The translations under genes were made by a program, and so were the position numbers. Positions 2 to 6,257 of a stretch of 52,459 nucleotides of DNA are shown one piece after another. The stretch is taken from positions 1 to 52,459 of the forward strand of contig SUYP01000020.1 in the NCBI GenBank assembly GCA_015060395.1. The letters run 5' to 3'. Position 1 is the stretch's first letter. Every line of letters starts with the position of its first letter. A model generated the notes under the pieces. That model did not search any database. It was not told the DNA's origin and worked only from the letters and a program-made list of their open reading frames with translations. The DNA is from Bacteroidales bacterium. GTDB taxonomy: Bacteria > Bacteroidota > Bacteroidia > Bacteroidales > UBA932.

Positions 2-118
2 GATGACGAGTCTATTTCAGCAGAAGACCTAAAGCAGCTTAGGAAAAGCCATTTTATTTTTGTTATGCTTGTTGCCATCGGACTTCTCTATTCTCACATC
101 TGCAGATTCTTTATCTGA
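2..118 (+). CDS. C-terminal end of a small membrane protein (partial)
   Basis: An open frame enters from the left edge and stops with TGA at 116-118, giving 38 visible residues. The first half is polar (DDESISAEDLKQLRKSH) and the second half is a hydrophobic stretch (FIFVMLVAIGLLYSHI) that could be one membrane helix, ending CRFFI. The family cannot be named from this fragment. It is the last gene before the long non-coding region and reads toward it. It may belong to the same accessory element or to the flanking chromosome; the window edge prevents a decision. Confidence 0.4.
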   Translation, partial: DDESISAEDLKQLRKSHFIFVMLVAIGLLYSHICRFFI

Positions 119-183
119 CAAATTCGCATTTATCTAAGAGATATAAGCCTGGTACACTGTGCCGGGCTTCGTTGTATATATAA

Positions 184-202
184 AAGCGGCACTCGTCCTC
201 TT
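184..202 (-). repeat. 19-nt direct repeat, copy 1
   Basis: AAGCGGCACTCGTCCTCTT here and AAGCGGCACTTGCCCTCTT at 580-598 differ at two of 19 positions. Repetition of an unpaired or pairing motif inside the structured RNA suggests duplicated modules. Confidence 0.55.
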
Positions 203-245
203 CCGACCGCAAGCGGATCGTCAGAAGACGACTATCTATAACTCC

Positions 246-308
246 GGACTGCCGCAAGACTCTCGTCTTTTCACAGAAAAGCCAAGAGACTTGCCTTCAA
301 GGCAGTCC
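246..308 (-). other. Long composite hairpin in the structured RNA
   Basis: Base stem GGACTGCC (246-253) pairs perfectly with GGCAGTCC (301-308). On the minus strand an inner stem AAG/CTT, a U-U mismatch and a further five pairs continue it, and it is capped by CTTTTC/GAAAAG around a three-base loop. This is one of the clearest single hairpins of the region. Confidence 0.7.
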
Positions 309-318
309 TCCGGTGCAT

Positions 319-363
319 GGGCGGCGACATCAGTGCAGTAGTCGCCAGTCCAAGTCGCCGCCC
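319..363 (-). other. Perfect 10-bp stem in the structured RNA
   Basis: GGGCGGCGAC at 319-328 is the exact reverse complement of 354-363, enclosing 25 bases. It is followed at 388-402 by a perfect 5-bp hairpin GGCCG/CGGCC. Confidence 0.7.
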
Positions 364-466
364 TCGAACGTCAATGTGCTTAGTTAAGGCCGGTAGTCGG
401 CCAGTGCAAATAGCGACTCCAGCATTTCAATCAAACCCCGGTTTGCCACGATTCCATCCCCGGTCA

Positions 467-512
467 TCAGGTGTCTTATCAACGATTTTTGACAAAATAG
501 TTGGACACCTGA
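467..512 (-). other. Nested perfect hairpin in the structured RNA
   Basis: Nine perfect pairs (TCAGGTGTC at 467-475 with 504-512) enclose CAAC/GTTG and ATTTT/AAAAT stems closed by a short loop, so almost all 46 bases are paired. Confidence 0.7.
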
Positions 513-579
513 CTCTCTCCCCACAGGCCAACGCCCTCGTTGCAAACCTCCTCACGTTGAACCCACCCTCATCAAAGTT

Positions 580-598
580 AAGCGGCACTTGCCCTCTT
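580..598 (-). repeat. 19-nt direct repeat, copy 2
   Basis: Second copy of the motif at 184-202, 17 of 19 bases identical. It overlaps the 5' side of the 589-625 hairpin. Confidence 0.55.
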
Positions 599-625
599 GC
601 CAAAGCGAGTTTGTCAAGAAGGCAA
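589..625 (-). other. Long hairpin needing a minus-strand G-U pair
   Basis: TTGCC/GGCAA at the base, then a six-pair segment that is complete only if a U-G pair is allowed on the minus strand (an A-C mismatch on plus), then CAAA/TTTG around a five-base loop. It supports transcription from the minus strand. Confidence 0.65.
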
Positions 626-670
626 CAATTCATAACTCGCTTCGCTCGATTAAACAAACAGCGGTCTGGA

Positions 671-702
671 GACTTAAGCCTTTTCCGCTCCGCTCCAAAG
701 TC
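671..702 (-). repeat. Copy 1 of a 32-nt hairpin module
   Basis: GACTT/AAGTC closing pairs flank an internal loop and an inner stem around GGAAAA (minus strand). The same module recurs at 1300-1331 with the same length and closing pairs. This copy sits inside a longer stem, CTGGAG/CTCCAG plus four more pairs after a U-U mismatch (666-714). Confidence 0.65.
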
Positions 703-803
703 ATAAGACTCCAGCTGGTCTATGCCCCTCTTATCCCCACAGGGGAAGAATGATCGCCTTCGCTACCGTCGTCCGTAGTGGACCCTCATCCTTCGTGGCC
801 CGA

Positions 804-949
804 GAGATTAACATAATCCAAGGGTTTATTGTGTAACAGACTTCCACCGTCAACACTCGCCCCAACAAACTCAAATTAAGAAGGTTTGAGACACGTAGGA
901 ATGCCCTGCAAGCGTCAGATTACACAATATGGATTATGTTAACTATCTC
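804..949 (-). other. Long-range helix closing an 83-nt internal domain
   Basis: TTAACATAATCC (808-819) pairs perfectly with 931-942 and TATTGTGTAA (827-836) pairs perfectly with 920-929, with GAGAT/ATCTC extending the outer end. The two segments are separated by an asymmetric internal loop. The enclosed domain contains a CTCAAA/TTTGAG hairpin near 871-891. Confidence 0.65.
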
Positions 950-997
950 CCTTAGTGCCAATAAGTTACGCATCTCTTTTGCCCGCTCAGTCGAGGC

Positions 998-1166
998 GGC
1001 TGGCAATAGTGAGCCTCCCTCAGGGACTAACGGCCTCCAAGTCCGTCGGGAGGCTCAGGACTTTCGGCGTGGGGATGTCGATGTCGTCTCTTTTGCGGAT
1101 GTCAGGGAGTAGAGTAGTGGCAGCAACTCTGATGACGGCCGAAAGTCCGAAAAGGAATTGCCAGCC
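998..1166 (-). other. Perfect three-way junction in the structured RNA
   Basis: A 10-bp closing helix (998-1007 with 1157-1166) encloses two directly abutting helices: 1010-1019/1048-1057 (10 bp) and 1058-1068/1138-1148 (11 bp). No unpaired base separates the two arms, and short linkers of 2 and 8 bases complete the junction. All three helices are mismatch-free. The first arm carries an inner GGACT/AGTCC stem. Confidence 0.75.
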
Positions 1167-1299
1167 TTAGCGGCGCAGCCGCGGGCCTTCTCCTGTCTTT
1201 TATCACTTCCTTCGCAAGCTCAGTCAGTCATAAAAGCCTTCCGTAGGCAAGGTATCGGCTCTGCCGATGAGTTTAATACTGCCCGCTTTTTCCTCTCCA

Positions 1300-1331
1300 G
1301 ACTTGAAAGCCTTTCCGCTTTGCTCCAAGTC
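1300..1331 (-). repeat. Copy 2 of a 32-nt hairpin module
   Basis: Same length and layout as 671-702: GACTT/AAGTC closing pairs, a GGAGC-RRAGC-GGAAA core and a GGCTT side (minus strand). It lies within the 8-bp helix CTGCCCGC 1279-1286/1349-1356. Differences between copies fall mostly in the inner stem and keep it paired, for example AAAGC/GCTTT here against GAGC/GCTT in copy 1. Confidence 0.65.
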
Positions 1332-1430
1332 TTCCAAATCTTCCGAGGGCGGGCAGATGTCTTGCCTGCTTTCCTCCGAGCTGTCAGCAGCCGCTATCGC
1401 GTCAGCTCACATCTCGGCGCAGCCAAGACC

Positions 1431-1494
1431 GGCGAGACTGTGTGATTTATTCCGTTCCGCATACGCTCCTCTCCATAAATCCCACAGACTCGCC
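1431..1494 (-). other. 20-bp stem with two mismatches in the structured RNA
   Basis: 1431-1450 pairs with 1475-1494 at 18 of 20 positions; on the minus strand the two exceptions are a U-U and a G-A opposition, both common in RNA helices. The loop is 24 bases. Confidence 0.65.
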
Positions 1495-1620
1495 AAGGCA
1501 CGCATCAAGGTCGTGGCGTTAGTAGTTCTTAGTCAGCGTATGTGCCTGAGCCGGAAAGACCCTTATCTCCCGCTCGAACCTCAGTGCGTCCGGCTCCTGC
1601 CGCGCCCTACGGGCTTGCCC

Positions 1621-1690
1621 CCTATGGCATTTGTGGCCGATTTCCGCCTCTGCTCACGCAGACGCGAAAACCGTCCCCAAACACCATAGG
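1621..1690 (-). other. 70-nt hairpin with G-U pairs and a GNRA loop
   Basis: Outer 13-bp stem 1621-1633/1678-1690, middle stem 1640-1647/1664-1671 and terminal stem TCTGC/GCAGA (1649-1653/1658-1662). Read on the minus strand, four positions are G-U pairs and the tip is GTGA, a GNRA tetraloop. On the plus strand those positions would be A-C mismatches. This is the best evidence for the RNA's orientation. Confidence 0.7.
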
Positions 1691-1783
1691 CCAGAGATGG
1701 ATCTCCCGCTTTGGCGTGTCTGCTTCCGGACCGTCTTCTCCCGCCTGCAGGTGGTGCCGGGAGTTATATAAATGCCAATGCGC

Positions 1784-1804
1784 GGAAGTCCTGGCCGGAC
1801 TTCC
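1784..1804 (-). other. Perfect 8-bp hairpin near one end of the structured RNA
   Basis: GGAAGTCC (1784-1791) pairs with GGACTTCC (1797-1804) around a five-base loop. A CTCCCG/CGGGAG stem (1738-1743/1758-1763) precedes it on the plus strand. Confidence 0.6.
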
Positions 1805-1860
1805 TTCGAGGTTCCTCTGAATTACCTCTGAGCTTAAGACTTATAATATATATGTATGCC

Positions 1861-2559
1861 CTATATACATACTCCTTCTGACAGGTTCCATTCCTTCGAT
1901 CTGTGCCCGCTCTGGGAGTCGACGAGGAAGTACCGCATGTGTATCTGGTACTCCCGAAGGTCGAGGCCGGAGACGGTTTTATATTCATGCATGATGAATG
2001 TCACATGACCATCATTGCCTATGGTGCCGACGTGGTTCCTGAACTTGCCTCGATGAGGGCTGTAGCCTGGGGCGGTGAGCTGGAGTTTACCGACGATCCT
2101 TATGTTCTCGGGGATGGTGTCTCCGGTGATCCGGAAGGATATCTGCAGGTCGGTTTCATTGATGACTGTTGAGGATGCCATCTCAAGACATACGACAGGG
2201 AAGTCCGGAATGGGTTGAGGTTCCGGGATGCGTTCGTCGCCAATGCAGGCGAGGCCGTGATAGGCGGACATGAAGAGGTTGTACCCGCTGATGTGGGTTG
2301 AGGTATTGAATGGTGGTCGTTTGGATCTGACGCTTCTGGCCAAGGCGTTCCACTCCAGCTGCTCTTCGTGGCCCAGGTTCCTCCACTCCTGGAGTCCTCT
2401 CTGATGGATGGACAGCTGCACCTGCTGGCCAGCGGTACCGGGAAACACAGGCTTCGCCTTGGTGCGGAAGAAACACTCTCCGTCCCTGTGATAGAATGTG
2501 ATTTTGCCCACTGATGCATAGCAATCAGTGAACCTGGAATTGGGGATATATTTCGGCAT
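1861..2559 (-). CDS. DUF6266-like protein, divergent paralog (232 aa)
   Basis: The function is unknown. The start is the ATG at 2559 (MPKYIPNSRF), because the longer frame begins at a non-ATG codon. The N-terminal half has the family pattern shared with the two plus-strand paralogs: a GKITFYHRDG segment, a basic FRTKAK stretch, a GQQVQ segment, and EQLEWNALA, matching QILAWNALA in the 5249 gene. The C-terminal half looks beta-rich and ends MRYFLVDSQSGHRS, matching MKYFFVNTKTGEKS of the paralog. I assign it to the DUF6266 type from this pattern, with moderate confidence. It is divergent from the five-gene operon, and its stop codon immediately precedes the structured RNA on the same strand, so the two may share a transcript. 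Confidence 0.7.
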   Translation of the reverse strand: MPKYIPNSRFTDCYASVGKITFYHRDGECFFRTKAKPVFPGTAGQQVQLSIHQRGLQEWRNLGHEEQLEWNALARSVRSKRPPFNTSTHISGYNLFMSAYHGLACIGDERIPEPQPIPDFPVVCLEMASSTVINETDLQISFRITGDTIPENIRIVGKLQLTAPGYSPHRGKFRNHVGTIGNDGHVTFIMHEYKTVSGLDLREYQIHMRYFLVDSQSGHRSKEWNLSEGVCI

Positions 2560-2596
2560 AGTCTTAAGTTTAGGATATGCAAAGTTCGTCAAAAAT

Positions 2597-2615
2597 CTTT
2601 ATGTTTTACATAAAG
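2597..2615. promoter_or_regulatory. Palindrome in the divergent intergenic region
   Basis: CTTTATGT and ACATAAAG are perfect 8-bp inverted repeats around a 3-bp spacer, midway between the divergent DUF6266-like genes. It could be an operator for both. TTGCACAA at 2648-2655, an 8 of 9 match to the inverted GTTGTGCAA motif of 6020-6125, lies just downstream. The role is inferred. Confidence 0.4.
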
Positions 2616-2672
2616 CGAAACTTTAGTTGTAAAATCTTAAAACATTATTGCACAATATATTAAATAAATCCT

Positions 2673-2680
2673 TATCTTTG
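2673..2680 (+). promoter_or_regulatory. Bacteroidota -7 box for the DUF6266/lysis operon
   Basis: TATCTTTG fits the TAnnTTTG consensus, 34 bases before the chosen ATG at 2714. No good TTTG -33 box was seen at the usual distance. Confidence 0.45.
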
Positions 2681-2713
2681 CCTTTGGAATTGAGGGGGCT
2701 GCACCGTAGCCTT

Positions 2714-3775
2714 ATGATCGTAAAACCCTCAATAGCCTTCAATGACTTCGCCGGCACAGCGAAGGATGTCACCGCCCGCAATGTCAAGGGTCGCAACATC
2801 CTCTCTTCACGTGCCCAGCATTCCAAGATAGTTACGCCCGCTCAGGCGGTCTCAAGAAACCGACTATCCAAGATCTCCCGCACATTCCGACAGCTCTCCG
2901 ATTCCCAAATTAACCAGTGGGAGGTCTTGGCTGGTCATCTTAAGGGAATCTCCACATTCGGCCAGGCTGCAAGCCTGACAGCTCACAATGCATTCGTCCG
3001 CATCAACTCCAATCGTGCAATGGTCGGCATGCCTCCGCTTGAAGAGGCTCCGGTGTACATCAACGACGTTCCTGAAGTTCTCTACGATGACCTTTGGATC
3101 TCTCCGGATATGATCATCTTCACAGGTCTGCAGCAGCCTTCTGAAAGTCACGTCCTCGTATTCAAGATGTCACCGGCCCTCAGTCCTGGAGTGTCTTCCG
3201 GATGGGGTAAGACAGTGATCATCACTCCTGGCATGGCTCCGGACTGGGGCGATGCAGATTTGACAGCGCTTTACACCGAGGTTATGGGAGTTGCACCAGA
3301 AGCTGGCAAGAAGTATTTCTGTGAGTTCTACTGGATGGATAAGAATACCGGATTTACAGGTGAGTCAATGGCCATCAGTGCGGTCTGCAAGGCAGGCTCT
3401 ACTGCGTATAACAGGGAATATGCTCCGCGTGTTCATTACACAGATAAGATGGTTGCCAATGCAGAGAACTTCAATCTTGGAATGGATCTCGAGCTTTCTC
3501 GTGGTTCGTCTATCATGTCAGTTGAAGCTTTGCTGAACATCAATGATGTGGCGTCGTATTTTGATGACGCATTCAAGGTTGTGCCTCCGGGATTCAAGGA
3601 GGGTTACACGATGGTTTATTCCCGTTCGTCCGAAAGACCTGACTTCAAGCCTGGTTTGATTTCAGTCAGTCTGGAAGATGACTACTACAAGGGCCCTTCT
3701 TATGGCTTCTCCCACAGAGCCGGAGGATGGGAAGACAAGGTCGAGGTATTCGGAACAGGTGCATTCGTAAGATAA
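2714..3775 (+). CDS. DUF6266-like protein, long paralog (353 aa)
   Basis: First gene of the plus-strand operon; function unknown. The start is the ATG at 2714 (MIVKPSIAFNDFAGTAKDVT); the frame extends upstream only through a TTG codon. The N-terminus matches the 5249 paralog (PSIAFDEMSGSAKGVTAAKV), including the K-GR pattern, a region rich in S/R/T/Q, and an INQWEVLAGH segment in place of AWNALA. It is about 120 residues longer than its paralogs because of a C-terminal extension after residue 240 that I do not recognise. There is no signal peptide or membrane helix. The next gene starts 12 bases downstream. Confidence 0.7.
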   Translation: MIVKPSIAFNDFAGTAKDVTARNVKGRNILSSRAQHSKIVTPAQAVSRNRLSKISRTFRQLSDSQINQWEVLAGHLKGISTFGQAASLTAHNAFVRINSNRAMVGMPPLEEAPVYINDVPEVLYDDLWISPDMIIFTGLQQPSESHVLVFKMSPALSPGVSSGWGKTVIITPGMAPDWGDADLTALYTEVMGVAPEAGKKYFCEFYWMDKNTGFTGESMAISAVCKAGSTAYNREYAPRVHYTDKMVANAENFNLGMDLELSRGSSIMSVEALLNINDVASYFDDAFKVVPPGFKEGYTMVYSRSSERPDFKPGLISVSLEDDYYKGPSYGFSHRAGGWEDKVEVFGTGAFVR

Positions 3776-3787
3776 AAGTTAACAGTT

Positions 3788-4504
3788 ATGATAACAGCAA
3801 CAGGAAATAATTTCGGAGCTGGTGAGATCGTCCTGAAGGACTACCAGCGTGACCACATTATAATCTTCAATGGAGAGGTCAAGTTCGACCCTTCCAACGA
3901 AGCGTACAGGAAAGCGGATGTCCTCGAGATCTACTTCCCGGACCTTTCTCTCAACAAGAGTTCCATCTCTGGAATCCTCATGCACGGTTCCGCTTCGCCT
4001 CGTCCTCGCGGTACCTGCGTGAAGACCTGGATCAAGGACTGCAACACAGTGTGCGTGGAAAAGGTTACTGCATGGGATGACGAGGAGCAGATTACATTGT
4101 GCTTTGCTTGTGCTTATGTTCCTAAAGGTCAGCATCAGATGTTTGAGCCAATGGATTGGCTTAATGTATCCGCACAGAACACAGTCGGTTCGATAAGCAT
4201 AGGCCAGACCTATTGGACGATGTGTGACGACTGGGCTTGGATTGCCATTACATTCAACAGGATCCATCTGCAGGAAGAGGGAGTCCATGCTTCATTTGAT
4301 GTAAAGGATTTCCCGGAAGACCTAGATTTTACAGGCACAATGCTTTATGATGAGCCTGTGTCACCGAGTGTCGGAACCGAGATGACAAAGTTCTCGATCA
4401 AAGGAAAGAAAGTAACCATCCTTGATGACCATCTCTACGACAGATACGAGCAGAGCTGCGGGTTCGTGGTGTTCGTCATCAGGGATAAGAATACAGCCGA
4501 ATAA
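3788..4504 (+). CDS. Unknown protein of the DUF6266/lysis operon (238 aa)
   Basis: I do not recognise this family. The ATG at 3788 follows the upstream stop by 12 bases, and the next gene starts 2 bases after its stop, so it is clearly translated within the operon. The protein is acidic and aromatic with no signal peptide or membrane segment. It has six cysteines (near residues 78, 85, 89, 104, 107 and 225, from GTCVKTWIKDCNTVCVEK, LCFACAY and QSCGFV) and a tryptophan-rich patch QTYWTMCDDWAWIAI. The many beta-prone stretches suggest a compact beta-rich fold. Given its neighbours it could be a virion or accessory protein, but that is a guess. Confidence 0.65.
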   Translation: MITATGNNFGAGEIVLKDYQRDHIIIFNGEVKFDPSNEAYRKADVLEIYFPDLSLNKSSISGILMHGSASPRPRGTCVKTWIKDCNTVCVEKVTAWDDEEQITLCFACAYVPKGQHQMFEPMDWLNVSAQNTVGSISIGQTYWTMCDDWAWIAITFNRIHLQEEGVHASFDVKDFPEDLDFTGTMLYDEPVSPSVGTEMTKFSIKGKKVTILDDHLYDRYEQSCGFVVFVIRDKNTAE

Positions 4505-4506
4505 CT

Positions 4507-4764
4507 ATGCCAAAGATGTCCCACATAGAAATCACACGCCTGCAGGGCGGTCTTGCAGTGGCGAGTTTCAGCTGCGGAGTCCTGATTGCGATGGTGTGCC
4601 TGTTCTGGATCGAGCCGCTTGGAGAGATTACATATTCTGCGATCTCGATTGTGAGCGAGCTCCTGGTTCTCTGTGGTGCGATCCTCGGTGTGAAGGCATC
4701 CTATGACATCAAATTCCACAAGTTTGAAGCAGAGCTGCTCAAGAAAGCAGACCGACACGAATAA
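4507..4764 (+). CDS. Small two-helix membrane protein, holin-like (85 aa)
   Basis: Two hydrophobic segments, about residues 15-34 (LAVASFSCGVLIAMVCLFWI) and 42-61 (SAISIVSELLVLCGAILGVK), are separated by a short acidic turn and followed by a charged tail (KFHKFEAELLKKADRHE). This size and layout fit a class II holin, which permeabilises the inner membrane at lysis. Small two-helix proteins are common, so the call rests on the next gene, which has spanin architecture. No endolysin lies beside it. It is packed in the operon, starting 2 bases after the previous stop. Confidence 0.6.
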   Translation: MPKMSHIEITRLQGGLAVASFSCGVLIAMVCLFWIEPLGEITYSAISIVSELLVLCGAILGVKASYDIKFHKFEAELLKKADRHE

Positions 4765-4773
4765 AACCAACCT

Positions 4774-5244
4774 ATGAAAAACTTCATCCTCGTTCTTTTC
4801 TCTGCCTTGTGTGTAGCCTGTGCGACTGCCCGACAGGCTGCACCGTCAGAGAAGATCATAACTGAAACTCGTATCGAGACGGTGTTTCAGACAGACACAG
4901 TATTTCTCGAAGTTCCCAAGATTGTAGAGAAGATTGTTACTGCTGACACTGTCTCTGTTCTCGAGAACGACTTTGCCCGCTCAGCTGCAGAAGTCTCAGA
5001 TGGTCTGCTCTCTCATTCCTTGGAAACAAAGCCGGTCAAACAACCGGTAGAAGTTCAGACCAAGATAGTCTATCGTGACAGCGTAGTCTTCAAAGACGTT
5101 GTCGTGTATGAGACCGTAGAAGTTGAGAAAGAGTTGACCGGCTGGCAGTCCTTCAAGATGAAGATGGGTGGCTGGTTCCTCGGAATCCTCATCATATTGA
5201 TAGTGTTCGCGATACTATATATTGTTAAATTCCTTAAACCTTAA
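4774..5244 (+). CDS. Lipoprotein with C-terminal membrane helix, u-spanin-like (156 aa)
   Basis: The N-terminus is a lipoprotein signal (MKNFILVLFSALCVAC) with cleavage expected before Cys16. The middle is Val/Thr/Glu-rich with repeated short motifs (ETVFQTDTVF, VYRDSVVF, VVVYETVEVEKE) that would form an extended periplasmic rod. A membrane helix (FLGILIILIVFAILYIV) lies at about 135-151 near the C-terminus. Anchoring in the outer membrane at one end and the inner membrane at the other is the definition of a unimolecular spanin such as phage T1 gp11, which fuses the two membranes during lysis of Gram-negative hosts. Adjacency to a holin-like gene supports this. Bacteroidota elements also carry lipoproteins of unknown role, so function is inferred. 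Confidence 0.6.
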   Translation: MKNFILVLFSALCVACATARQAAPSEKIITETRIETVFQTDTVFLEVPKIVEKIVTADTVSVLENDFARSAAEVSDGLLSHSLETKPVKQPVEVQTKIVYRDSVVFKDVVVYETVEVEKELTGWQSFKMKMGGWFLGILIILIVFAILYIVKFLKP

Positions 5245-5248
5245 AACT

Positions 5249-5956
5249 ATGAAGTACGTTCCTTCAATCGCCTTTGACGAAATGTCAGGCTCAGCAAAGG
5301 GTGTAACCGCAGCCAAGGTGCGCGGTCGTAAGTACATCCGCAATCGTGGCTACGGCGGCTCAGTCCGCACAAGTGCCCAGGCAGCAGTGAAGTCAATCTT
5401 CAAGCAGCTCTCACAGAGTTGGAAGAACCTCACCAACGCCCAGATCCTCGCATGGAATGCCCTGGCTCAGACCCAGGCAGGAAAGTCAGTTCTCGGAACA
5501 TCCGCAAAGATCTCCGGAGCCAACCTCTACTCACGCCTCAACTACTGGATTGTCTTCTGCGGTGGAGAAGCCCTCTCCAACCCACCAGCACTCCAGGGCG
5601 TTGAAGCTCCAACCGAGGCCGTCGTAACCCTCACCCCAACCAAGTTCACTTTCGAGCTCGAGAGCGAACCCGAGAATGTTCAGGACCTGAAGCTCATCAT
5701 CCAGGCCTCAGCACCTCAGTCCAACGGTGTCACCCGTGCCTACAGCAAAGCCGTTCAGATCGGTGGAGTCCTCGAGGCAGTAACAGAGGAGTACGACATC
5801 AAAGAAGACTACGACAACAAGCACGGCGCCCCTAACGCCGCCGCTCCAAAGATCTTCATGAAGTACTTCTTCGTCAACACCAAAACCGGCGAAAAATCCG
5901 GCGAAATGCTCACCATGGTCAGACTCGACGAAGACGCACCTGTAGAGGGCGAGTAA
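5249..5956 (+). CDS. DUF6266-like protein, third paralog (235 aa)
   Basis: Last gene of the operon; the ATG at 5249 lies 4 bases after the spanin-like stop. It is the clearest family member: an N-terminal segment SGSAKGVTAAKVRGRKYIR followed by a basic, Gln/Ser-rich stretch, NAQILAWNALA near residues 65-75, and a beta-rich C-terminal half ending MKYFFVNTKTGEKS and an acidic tail. DUF6266-type proteins are frequent in Bacteroidota and have no assigned function that I know. The conserved basic N-terminus would suit nucleic-acid binding, which is of interest beside a large structured RNA, but this is inference only. Confidence 0.7.
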   Translation: MKYVPSIAFDEMSGSAKGVTAAKVRGRKYIRNRGYGGSVRTSAQAAVKSIFKQLSQSWKNLTNAQILAWNALAQTQAGKSVLGTSAKISGANLYSRLNYWIVFCGGEALSNPPALQGVEAPTEAVVTLTPTKFTFELESEPENVQDLKLIIQASAPQSNGVTRAYSKAVQIGGVLEAVTEEYDIKEDYDNKHGAPNAAAPKIFMKYFFVNTKTGEKSGEMLTMVRLDEDAPVEGE

Positions 5957-5982: not shown

Positions 5983-6016
5983 AAAGCCCGCATCGGTAGA
6001 TTCCGCTGTGGGCTTT
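5983..6016 (+). terminator. Hairpin after the DUF6266/lysis operon
   Basis: AAAGCCC (5983-5989) pairs with GGGCTTT (6010-6016), 26 bases after the last stop. There is no run of T beyond the stem, so termination may be weak. Confidence 0.4.
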
Positions 6017-6019
6017 ATC

Positions 6020-6125
6020 GTTGTGCAAAAATCAACCATCGTTGTGCAATTTTTAAGCGATTTCATCGCCTTGCACAACAAATTTTACTCATTACAACCA
6101 ATTCGGTTGTGCAATGGTTGTGCAA
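6020..6125. repeat. Array of five GTTGTGCAA sites
   Basis: Direct copies lie at 6020-6028, 6041-6049, 6106-6114 and 6117-6125, with one inverted copy (TTGCACAAC) at 6071-6079. Start-to-start spacings of 21 and 11 bases are close to two turns and one turn of the helix. The array sits between the element's operon and the tRNA 3' end, the expected place for recombinase arm-type or accessory sites. An operator array is the alternative. Confidence 0.55.
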
Positions 6126-6137
6126 TTTTACAAAAAG

Positions 6138-6176
6138 AAGAACGCAAATCGTTGAAAATCAATGATTTGCGTTCTT
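6138..6176 (-). terminator. Terminator of the rplS / tRNA-Arg transcript
   Basis: A perfect 13-bp inverted repeat (6138-6150 with 6164-6176) is followed on the minus strand by CTTTTTG. It stands just beyond the tRNA 3' end. Confidence 0.7.
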
Positions 6177-6183
6177 GAAAAAG

Positions 6184-6257
6184 TGACTCCGACAGGATTC
6201 AAACCTGTAACCTTCTGATCCGTAGTCAGATGCTCTATTCAGTTGAGCTACGGAGCC
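6184..6257 (-). tRNA. tRNA-Arg (anticodon ACG)
   Basis: A 74-nt cloverleaf on the minus strand: acceptor GGCTCCG pairs with CGGAGTC (one G-U), anticodon stem TCTGA/TCAGA encloses loop CTACGGA with anticodon ACG, and the T-arm contains GGTTTGAATCC. The discriminator base is A and CCA is not encoded. It lies 28 bases downstream of rplS on the same strand. Its 3' end borders the putative phage-derived element. Confidence 0.93.

Follow-up and report, generated by a model that had tools for sequence, protein, structure and literature searches.

What is the roughly 1.7 kb of DNA that lies, with no credible gene in it, at the left end of contig SUYP01000020.1, beside a phage-like set of genes? The contig, from a Bacteroidales bacterium (GenBank assembly GCA_015060395.1), is 52,459 nucleotides long, belongs to a 2.66-Mb genome with 55 contigs, and is taken whole as our window. 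We find that positions ~178-1850 do not code for protein but form an element in which compensatory change keeps the secondary structure, and we consider it very likely that this element is a structured RNA gene. Next to it stand six genes, A to F, and a tRNA-Arg gene (Table 1). More generally, we propose that the element specifies an uncatalogued minus-strand RNA of ~1.67 kb, which may act as a scaffold in trans and be made together with a phage-like lysis cassette that is itself likely mobile, a composite reading whose chances we put at about even.

A non-coding element with conserved secondary structure

The sequence-only reading that had singled out the locus saw about 1.7 kb without a credible gene, and the pattern of change agrees. 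Compared with 10 close relatives, substitutions in the element fall on the three codon positions as 474/430/399, with no position bias, and the length of 151 of 173 indels is not divisible by 3; in a comparable test genes A, D, E and F show the third-position excess of coding sequence (for F, 107/81/356). Four open reading frames (ORFs) of the region, tested singly, give 46/50/63, 46/26/42, 117/125/135 and 101/123/88, none of them clearly coding. The first, ORF 1158-1445 on the plus strand, belongs to an ORF family seen in 13 loci. Families f4, f7, f9 and f10, of which f4 is the only one tested for coding, are found repeatedly inside the RNA region or extending across it, and we ascribe this to conservation of the RNA itself. 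A protein gene in the element was rejected because codon-position bias is absent and the indels mostly do not come in threes.

The many helices described in that reading are matched by exact inverted repeats at the places it had noted; we listed 20 inverted-repeat pairs of at least 9 nt, some of them imperfect or trivial palindromes. Among 200-nt segments starting at 101-1701, 8 of 17 have a minus-strand fold z of -2.5 or lower (down to -4.8), as against 0 of 40 segments starting at 1901-5801 in the neighbouring genes, where on the plus strand two of the 40 reach -2.5 and -3.6. By these scores the structure goes beyond chance, and chance hairpins were rejected as an explanation by the z scores together with covariation.

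How strongly is the structure maintained? Any structure gains an advantage over slid controls when it comes from the alignment on which it is scored, and therefore most weight falls on a test in which the substitutions of each column are re-placed on the tree. Applied to 53 sequences of the conserved core, this null leaves 11 of 78,621 column pairs at E<=0.05, and 8 of the 11 coincide exactly with pairs of the RNAalifold structure. The 362 pairs predicted for 23 full-length loci are 88.8% canonical, as against 36.8-45.3% in six slid controls, and 175 pairs have changed on both sides, as against 60-84; 25 of the 32 helices of 4 bp or longer include two or more such pairs and have 75% of their cells canonical. 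The same set yields 63 significant pairs, 26 of them inside the structure. For the 16 sequences of the window's own subfamily the figures are 92.3% canonical (39.2-43.9% slid) and 64 pairs changed on both sides (17-29 slid).

The same genome has a second copy of the element, on contig C55, where blastn pieces are 78-84% identical to the window; some blocks are near 100% identical and others not alignable, and about 50 nt (about 1380-1430), beside helix 1431-1494, are absent from it. Two stems in this copy carry matched changes on both arms relative to the window, and in stem 1058-1068/1138-1148 C-G has become T-A with both sides changed. That stem, 1148-1138 / 1068-1058 when read along the transcript, and hairpin 1057-1048 / 1019-1010 lie inside the long-range helix of the three-way region. 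The apical loop of core stem 808-942 is missing from several relatives.

Two oriented motifs recur on the transcript strand, CACTGACG with 45 copies and AGTCTGTG with 48 copies in 50 loci, where 1.5 and 0.7 would be expected; these are possible loop or protein sites.

Table 1. Features of the predicted RNA (helix arms in transcript direction) and of its neighbours, in positions of the window
Feature	Position	Strand	Remarks
Predicted giant structured RNA, ~1.67 kb	178..1850	-	Covariation in two full-length alignments and in the core; no coding signal
Conserved 5' block TATAAGTCTTAAGC...CAGAGGTAAYTCAGAGG	1802..1850	-	From nhmmer iteration; overlaps gene A 5' leader in many relatives
Long hairpin, 30 bp, arms 1689-1658 / 1653-1622	1622..1689	-	7 pairs changed on both sides
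Helix 1600-1589 / 1555-1544, inner helix 1569-1565 / 1560-1556	1544..1600	-	Full-length alignments
Helix 1494-1483 / 1442-1431, inner helix 1479-1475 / 1450-1446	1431..1494	-	Alignments and second copy
Helix 1356-1349 / 1286-1279 around 1341-1327 / 1313-1299	1279..1356	-	4 and 7 pairs changed on both sides
Helix 1248-1243 / 1190-1185 around 1239-1226 / 1207-1194	1185..1248	-	10 pairs changed on both sides
Three-way region, long-range helix 1166-1157 / 1007-998	998..1166	-	Inverted repeats; core and full-length covariation
Conserved core	693..1073	-	Source of the profile; 805-946 gave covariance model R1
Core stem TTAACATAATCC.ATTGTGTAA / TTACACAAT.GGATTATGTTAA	808..942	-	942-930 / 820-808 and 929-920 / 836-827
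Stem TCAGGTGTC / GACACCTGA	467..512	-	Compensated in second copy to TCAGGTATC / GATACCTGA
Terminator-like 3' end, stem 231-227 / 197-193	174..231	-	5 bp, 29-nt loop
Protein A, 243 aa (232 aa from inner ATG)	1861..2592	-	The neighbour found most constantly beside the RNA; orientation opposite to that in most relatives
Protein B	2648..3775	+	Distant paralogue of A and F
Protein C	3788..4504	+	Predicted mostly beta, pLDDT 87.6
Protein D, 85 aa	4507..4764	+	Two hydrophobic segments; holin-like by layout; no family above cut-off
Protein E	4774..5244	+	Lipobox-like N terminus, C-terminal hydrophobic helix; u-spanin-like by layout; no family above cut-off
Protein F	5249..5956	+	Paralogue of A and B
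tRNA-Arg (ACG)	6183..6257	-	Adjoins the cassette with its 3' end, where synteny with relatives is lost

Predicted strand, ends and independence of the RNA

Which strand would be transcribed? We predicted helices without G-U on both strands and counted the interior mispairs that are G-U on the minus strand against those that are G-U on the plus strand, which appear as A-C on the minus. The core gives 27 G-U against 8 A-C, at 12 and 6 pairs, and the full-length sets give 43 against 15 (typical set) and 9 against 4 (window set); the same count for a control, the RNase P RNA of 30 genomes belonging to the genus, gives 54 against 16. In hairpin 1622-1689 there are 59 G-U cells and 0 A-C cells (16-row alignment, structure predicted on the minus strand), in keeping with the earlier observation of stems that G-U pairs complete on that strand alone. 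Moreover, fold energy is lower for the minus than for the plus strand in 5 of 5 full regions and in 45 of 53 cores.

We also scanned the minus strand, within 700 nt past the core, for a perfect stem of at least 5 bp followed by [AG]YYGC and a U-run. Matches were found at 11 of 71 loci, 10 of which (the window included) have [AG]CCGC and one a looser form, as against 0 of 71 on the opposite strand and an average of 0.1 loci in shuffles. After the stem the window reads GCCGC, a U-run at 185-182 and AUAUAUA, and the geometry is similar at 9 other loci; the ten loci together use six stem sequences with the pairing kept (TCGTC/GACGA, CACAGT/ACTGTG, CAAAGC/GCTTTG, CAAGCT/AGCTTG, CTCGCC/GGCGAG and TTGCC/GGCAA). 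Since wobble counts, fold energies and this terminator-like end agree, we predict with high confidence that the element, given that it is an RNA, is transcribed from the minus strand; an earlier idea of a plus-strand RNA, drawn from plus-strand terminators near A, was dropped after the scan.

Homology limits and the terminator-like end together would place the 5' end near 1830-1850 and the 3' end near 178. The extent of 119..1860 first suggested for the element therefore holds from ~178 to ~1830-1850 and has to be given up for 119-177, a separate conserved hairpin block outside the predicted RNA. This block is common to six loci of relatives (such loci carry L numbers: L035, L039, L040, L041, L084, L088), sometimes away from the cassette, and could be a dispersed repeat or a terminator. 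Copies of GGCCGAT(A) were noticed by eye just past the predicted RNA 3' end, in the left flanks of L060, L132, L070 and L074.

Is the RNA then part of a neighbouring transcript? Among 51 loci with an RNA match at E<1e-4, the RNA on its predicted strand lies upstream of A and divergent from it in 37, A has the inverted orientation of the window in 10, and the RNA stands behind the cassette in 4 (L104, L137, L158, L163). The proposal that it forms the 3' region of the adjacent gene's transcript thus fits the arrangement of the window and its like and fails for the divergent and far-side loci; since the RNA occurs in all three arrangements, it should be an independent transcript. The conserved block at its right limit borders gene A. 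Between RNA and A start many loci have A's own promoter motif, TAnnTTTG, and the plus-strand enrichment of this motif at the RNA 5' end (near-duplicate loci kept in) is that promoter of A. Separately, CTTAAGACT is present at 1833-1841 and 2560-2568 in inverted orientation, at both ends of the flipped gene A, and could mark an inversion.

Distribution, cassette and probable mobility

With plain blastn the element turned up in 21 of 200 genomes, its own included, and with another copy as query in 39 of 298; both sets lie within one genus. Covariance model R1, which covers the central core stem, reaches 23 of 249 genomes of the taxonomic family at E<=0.001, in 9 of the 25 genera sampled, and 3 of 393 over the order, two from the own genus and one a weak match in another family with no A in the stretch examined. 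Protein A has a match in 49 of the 249 family genomes and in 20 of the 23 RNA-positive ones, the sets of 249 being apparently the same draw. At 82 loci found by A, the core is matched in 52 by profile and in 48 by R1, a model built partly from 15 of these loci. Among 20 loci fetched through R1 (of 26 places found), A lies within 3 kb in 15 and at 4.9 kb in one, and 4 have no A in the stretch examined. Blastn with the element gave no match in phage records. In IMG/VR viral contigs, a relative of A was present in 2 of 45 pattern-matched stretches, both with the RNA core (L163, L164); pattern scans of viral contigs returned one of these contigs again (L238) and three matches without relatives of A (L237, L239, L240), which we take for chance.

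Protein A also suggests that the genome belongs to Bacteroidales: its nearest relatives, at identities of up to 91%, are encoded in ruminant bins of that order, and one further relative is named Candidatus Cryptobacteroides. An Ig/FnIII-like domain is predicted at the C-terminus of A, the N-terminal part being unresolved by AlphaFold, and its fold matches, sought in the PDB only, are generic Ig/FnIII folds (best E 7e-4). Cassette genes usually run A > B > C > (D) > (E) > F. Pfam and NCBIfam give no match above cut-off for any of the six proteins; A, B, C, D and F have no Pfam family at E<=0.1, and E has a sub-threshold match to a family other than DUF6266. The DUF6266 label once given to this operon thus found no backing in a library whose inclusion of the DUF6266 model was unchecked. 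For protein C there is no fold match at E<=0.001 in the PDB or BFVD. By sequence layout D is holin-like and E u-spanin-like; among the six proteins neither an endolysin nor a phage head or packaging family was recognised. Extra genes of relatives, one tested per family, match phage lysozyme PF00959 (L146), M15 peptidase (L131) and Abi_2, and these gene families occur at 9, 4 and 4 loci. The Abi_2 family gene (PF07751; match in the tested L146) stands between A and B in L145, L146, L147 and L160 and is possibly defence cargo. Protein D is 100% identical between window 4507-4764 and L033 8778-9035, as against 35% for the adjoining C, a contrast that indicates mosaic exchange.

A tRNA-Arg-rplS query from the window matched 37 of 41 genomes of the genus and returned 29 loci of relatives, 24 of them with 370-1500 bp beyond the tRNA; cassette homology is absent from 22 of these, and 2 have cassette genes. 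Because tRNA-Arg stands without it in 22 of 24 relatives, the cassette is likely mobile, using tRNA neighbourhoods. Integrase matches came from two ORFs beside RNA and A, in two tested copies, and ARAGORN reported a tRNA gene in 5 and a tmRNA gene in 1 of 37 relative loci. Attachment sites would show as direct repeats of the 3' end of the tRNA; none of 10 nt or more was present in the four loci tried, and a distal site may be lost because the contig starts at window base 1; terminal inverted repeats common to the cassette were not seen. Between F and tRNA-Arg, window 6010-6120 holds repeated TTGTGCAA / TTGCACAA motifs, which could be recombinase arm sites; the plus-strand fold z is -6.8 for 6001-6200.

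Competing explanations and known systems

A number of observations weigh against an independent minus-strand RNA linked to A. Three of the 11 significant core pairs lie outside the structure and are mostly non-canonical, 37 of the 63 significant full-length pairs likewise lie outside it, and de novo covariation among the 16 window-type sequences, a set with little divergence, gives 0 of 470,980 pairs at E<=0.05. The G-U and energy counts are not independent, because the sequences are related. The 3' stem has a length of just 5-6 bp, with a loop of mostly 29-30 nt, and is not seen in 60 of 71 loci; no minus-strand TAnnTTTG stands out at the RNA 5' end, near which 11 minus-strand terminator-like sites lie at core +1200 to +1500, and in four loci (L064, L066, L097, L135) plus-strand terminator-like sites stand just before A. 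RNA modules occur alone elsewhere (L034, L036) or reordered (L035), 3 of 23 RNA-positive genomes lack A, and 30 of 82 A loci lack a profile match, part of them cut by contig ends. Finally, wobble pairs are rare, at 1.6% as against 5.0% in RNase P RNA.

What else, then, could the element be? Its low share of wobble is the main reason why we retain, as an unlikely possibility, a role at the DNA level, in which a structured site for recombination, packaging or replication of the mobile cassette would have its palindromic arms conserved as DNA. That the cassette adjoins a tRNA beside which most relatives have no cassette, that integrases lie near some copies and that A is flipped between related copies would suit such a site; against it, the ratio of G-U to A-C in the core equals that of RNase P RNA, the terminator-like end is directional with compensated stems, and nested multi-branch folding over ~1.6 kb is far more than DNA sites of this sort are known to need. 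We hold it equally unlikely that the element regulates gene A in cis, as a giant leader, attenuator or antisense RNA. The 5' block coincides with the A leader in many relatives, so that the transcripts would overlap by tens of bases; A's promoter motif, however, separates the RNA body from the A start in many loci, the RNA lies ~4 kb or more from A in the four loci where it follows the cassette, A is inverted in the window, and the length would be out of proportion.

The plus-strand terminator-like sites before A, and hairpin 146-170, which as read from the alignment has wobble on the plus strand, would fit a plus-strand transcript, but wobble asymmetry, energies and the 3' end all favour the minus strand and leave this reading very improbable. 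Slightly less credible still is an accidental assembly of mobile, REP/MITE-like hairpin modules that are unrelated and have no joint function: modules ~220-488 and 632-716 do occur alone or reordered in L034, L035, L036 and L049, but order, orientation and long-range helices are kept over ~1.6 kb in many loci beside A.

How might an RNA of this kind work? By analogy with known large RNAs, a function as a scaffold in trans has, given an RNA, even or slightly better than even chances. The minus strand of 178-1850 would be transcribed independently as a ~1.67-kb RNA and would fold into a multi-domain, possibly multimeric body. A-type protein would probably bind it, being the candidate partner because its gene is the RNA's most constant neighbour, and the RNA may act while the holin- and spanin-like cassette proteins lyse the cell, akin to the phage tie of GOLLD and ROOL. 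As a long shot, the RNA might instead be particle cargo, bound or coated over its ~1.7 kb by A/B/F-type proteins and released by holin/spanin lysis; if so, this would be an element of phage origin for RNA release, with no like among the mobile entities described so far.

Does the element belong to a known class? At gathering score Rfam 15 finds only tRNAs in the window and nine relative loci, and permissive scans of window 100-1900 and L048 5380-7195 stay far below gathering (best E 0.035 and 0.17). GOLLD, ROOL, OLE, RNase P, tmRNA, SRP RNA and group I and II introns were rejected on this ground; the sequence-only reading had not recognised the element as any of the last five. That reading had named a conserved reading frame, lack of covariation and an Rfam match as signs against it; we find no reading-frame signal, covariation and no Rfam match. 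Its giant structured non-coding RNA in a mobile, phage-like Bacteroidales setting survives, probably on the minus strand and ~1.67 kb long, and the suggested kinship with GOLLD and ROOL stands as an analogy of kind and falls as homology, since their Rfam models do not match. Among the literature matches listed, titles and abstract openings describe no such RNA, and surveys of candidate RNAs might contain parts of it.

The element is long and non-coding, has many covarying helices and lies in a phage or mobile context near a tRNA gene, as large ornate RNAs often do. GOLLD and ROOL are described as RNAs of phages and prophages that are frequently found close to tRNA islands, with GOLLD rising during phage lysis and both forming RNA nanocages (PMC12286853). 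ROOL is large and ornate and takes its name from the rumen. Like GOLLD as presented there, the element is large, rich in helices and set in a phage or prophage context near a tRNA; unlike it, it has no Rfam match and is about twice the >800 nt quoted for GOLLD (PMC12286853). It also differs from GOLLD in its tie to a protein-A/lysis cassette in Bacteroidales. From ROOL it is set apart by a different sequence with no Rfam match. ROOL differs from it in length too. OLE, also large and ornate, has a protein partner of its own but differs from the element in hosts and context, and the element has no Rfam match to OLE either. Phage lysis cassettes resemble that of the element in the holin- and u-spanin-like layout of D and E and in the lysozyme or M15 peptidase of relatives; they differ from the window's, which has A/B/F paralogues and a giant RNA and in which no endolysin was recognised. 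If transcribed as predicted, the element would be among the largest known non-ribosomal structured bacterial RNAs, about twice GOLLD, and its constant protein neighbour and lysis cassette would offer a concrete partner for the function of ornate phage-linked RNAs, a question set here in rumen and gut Bacteroidales.

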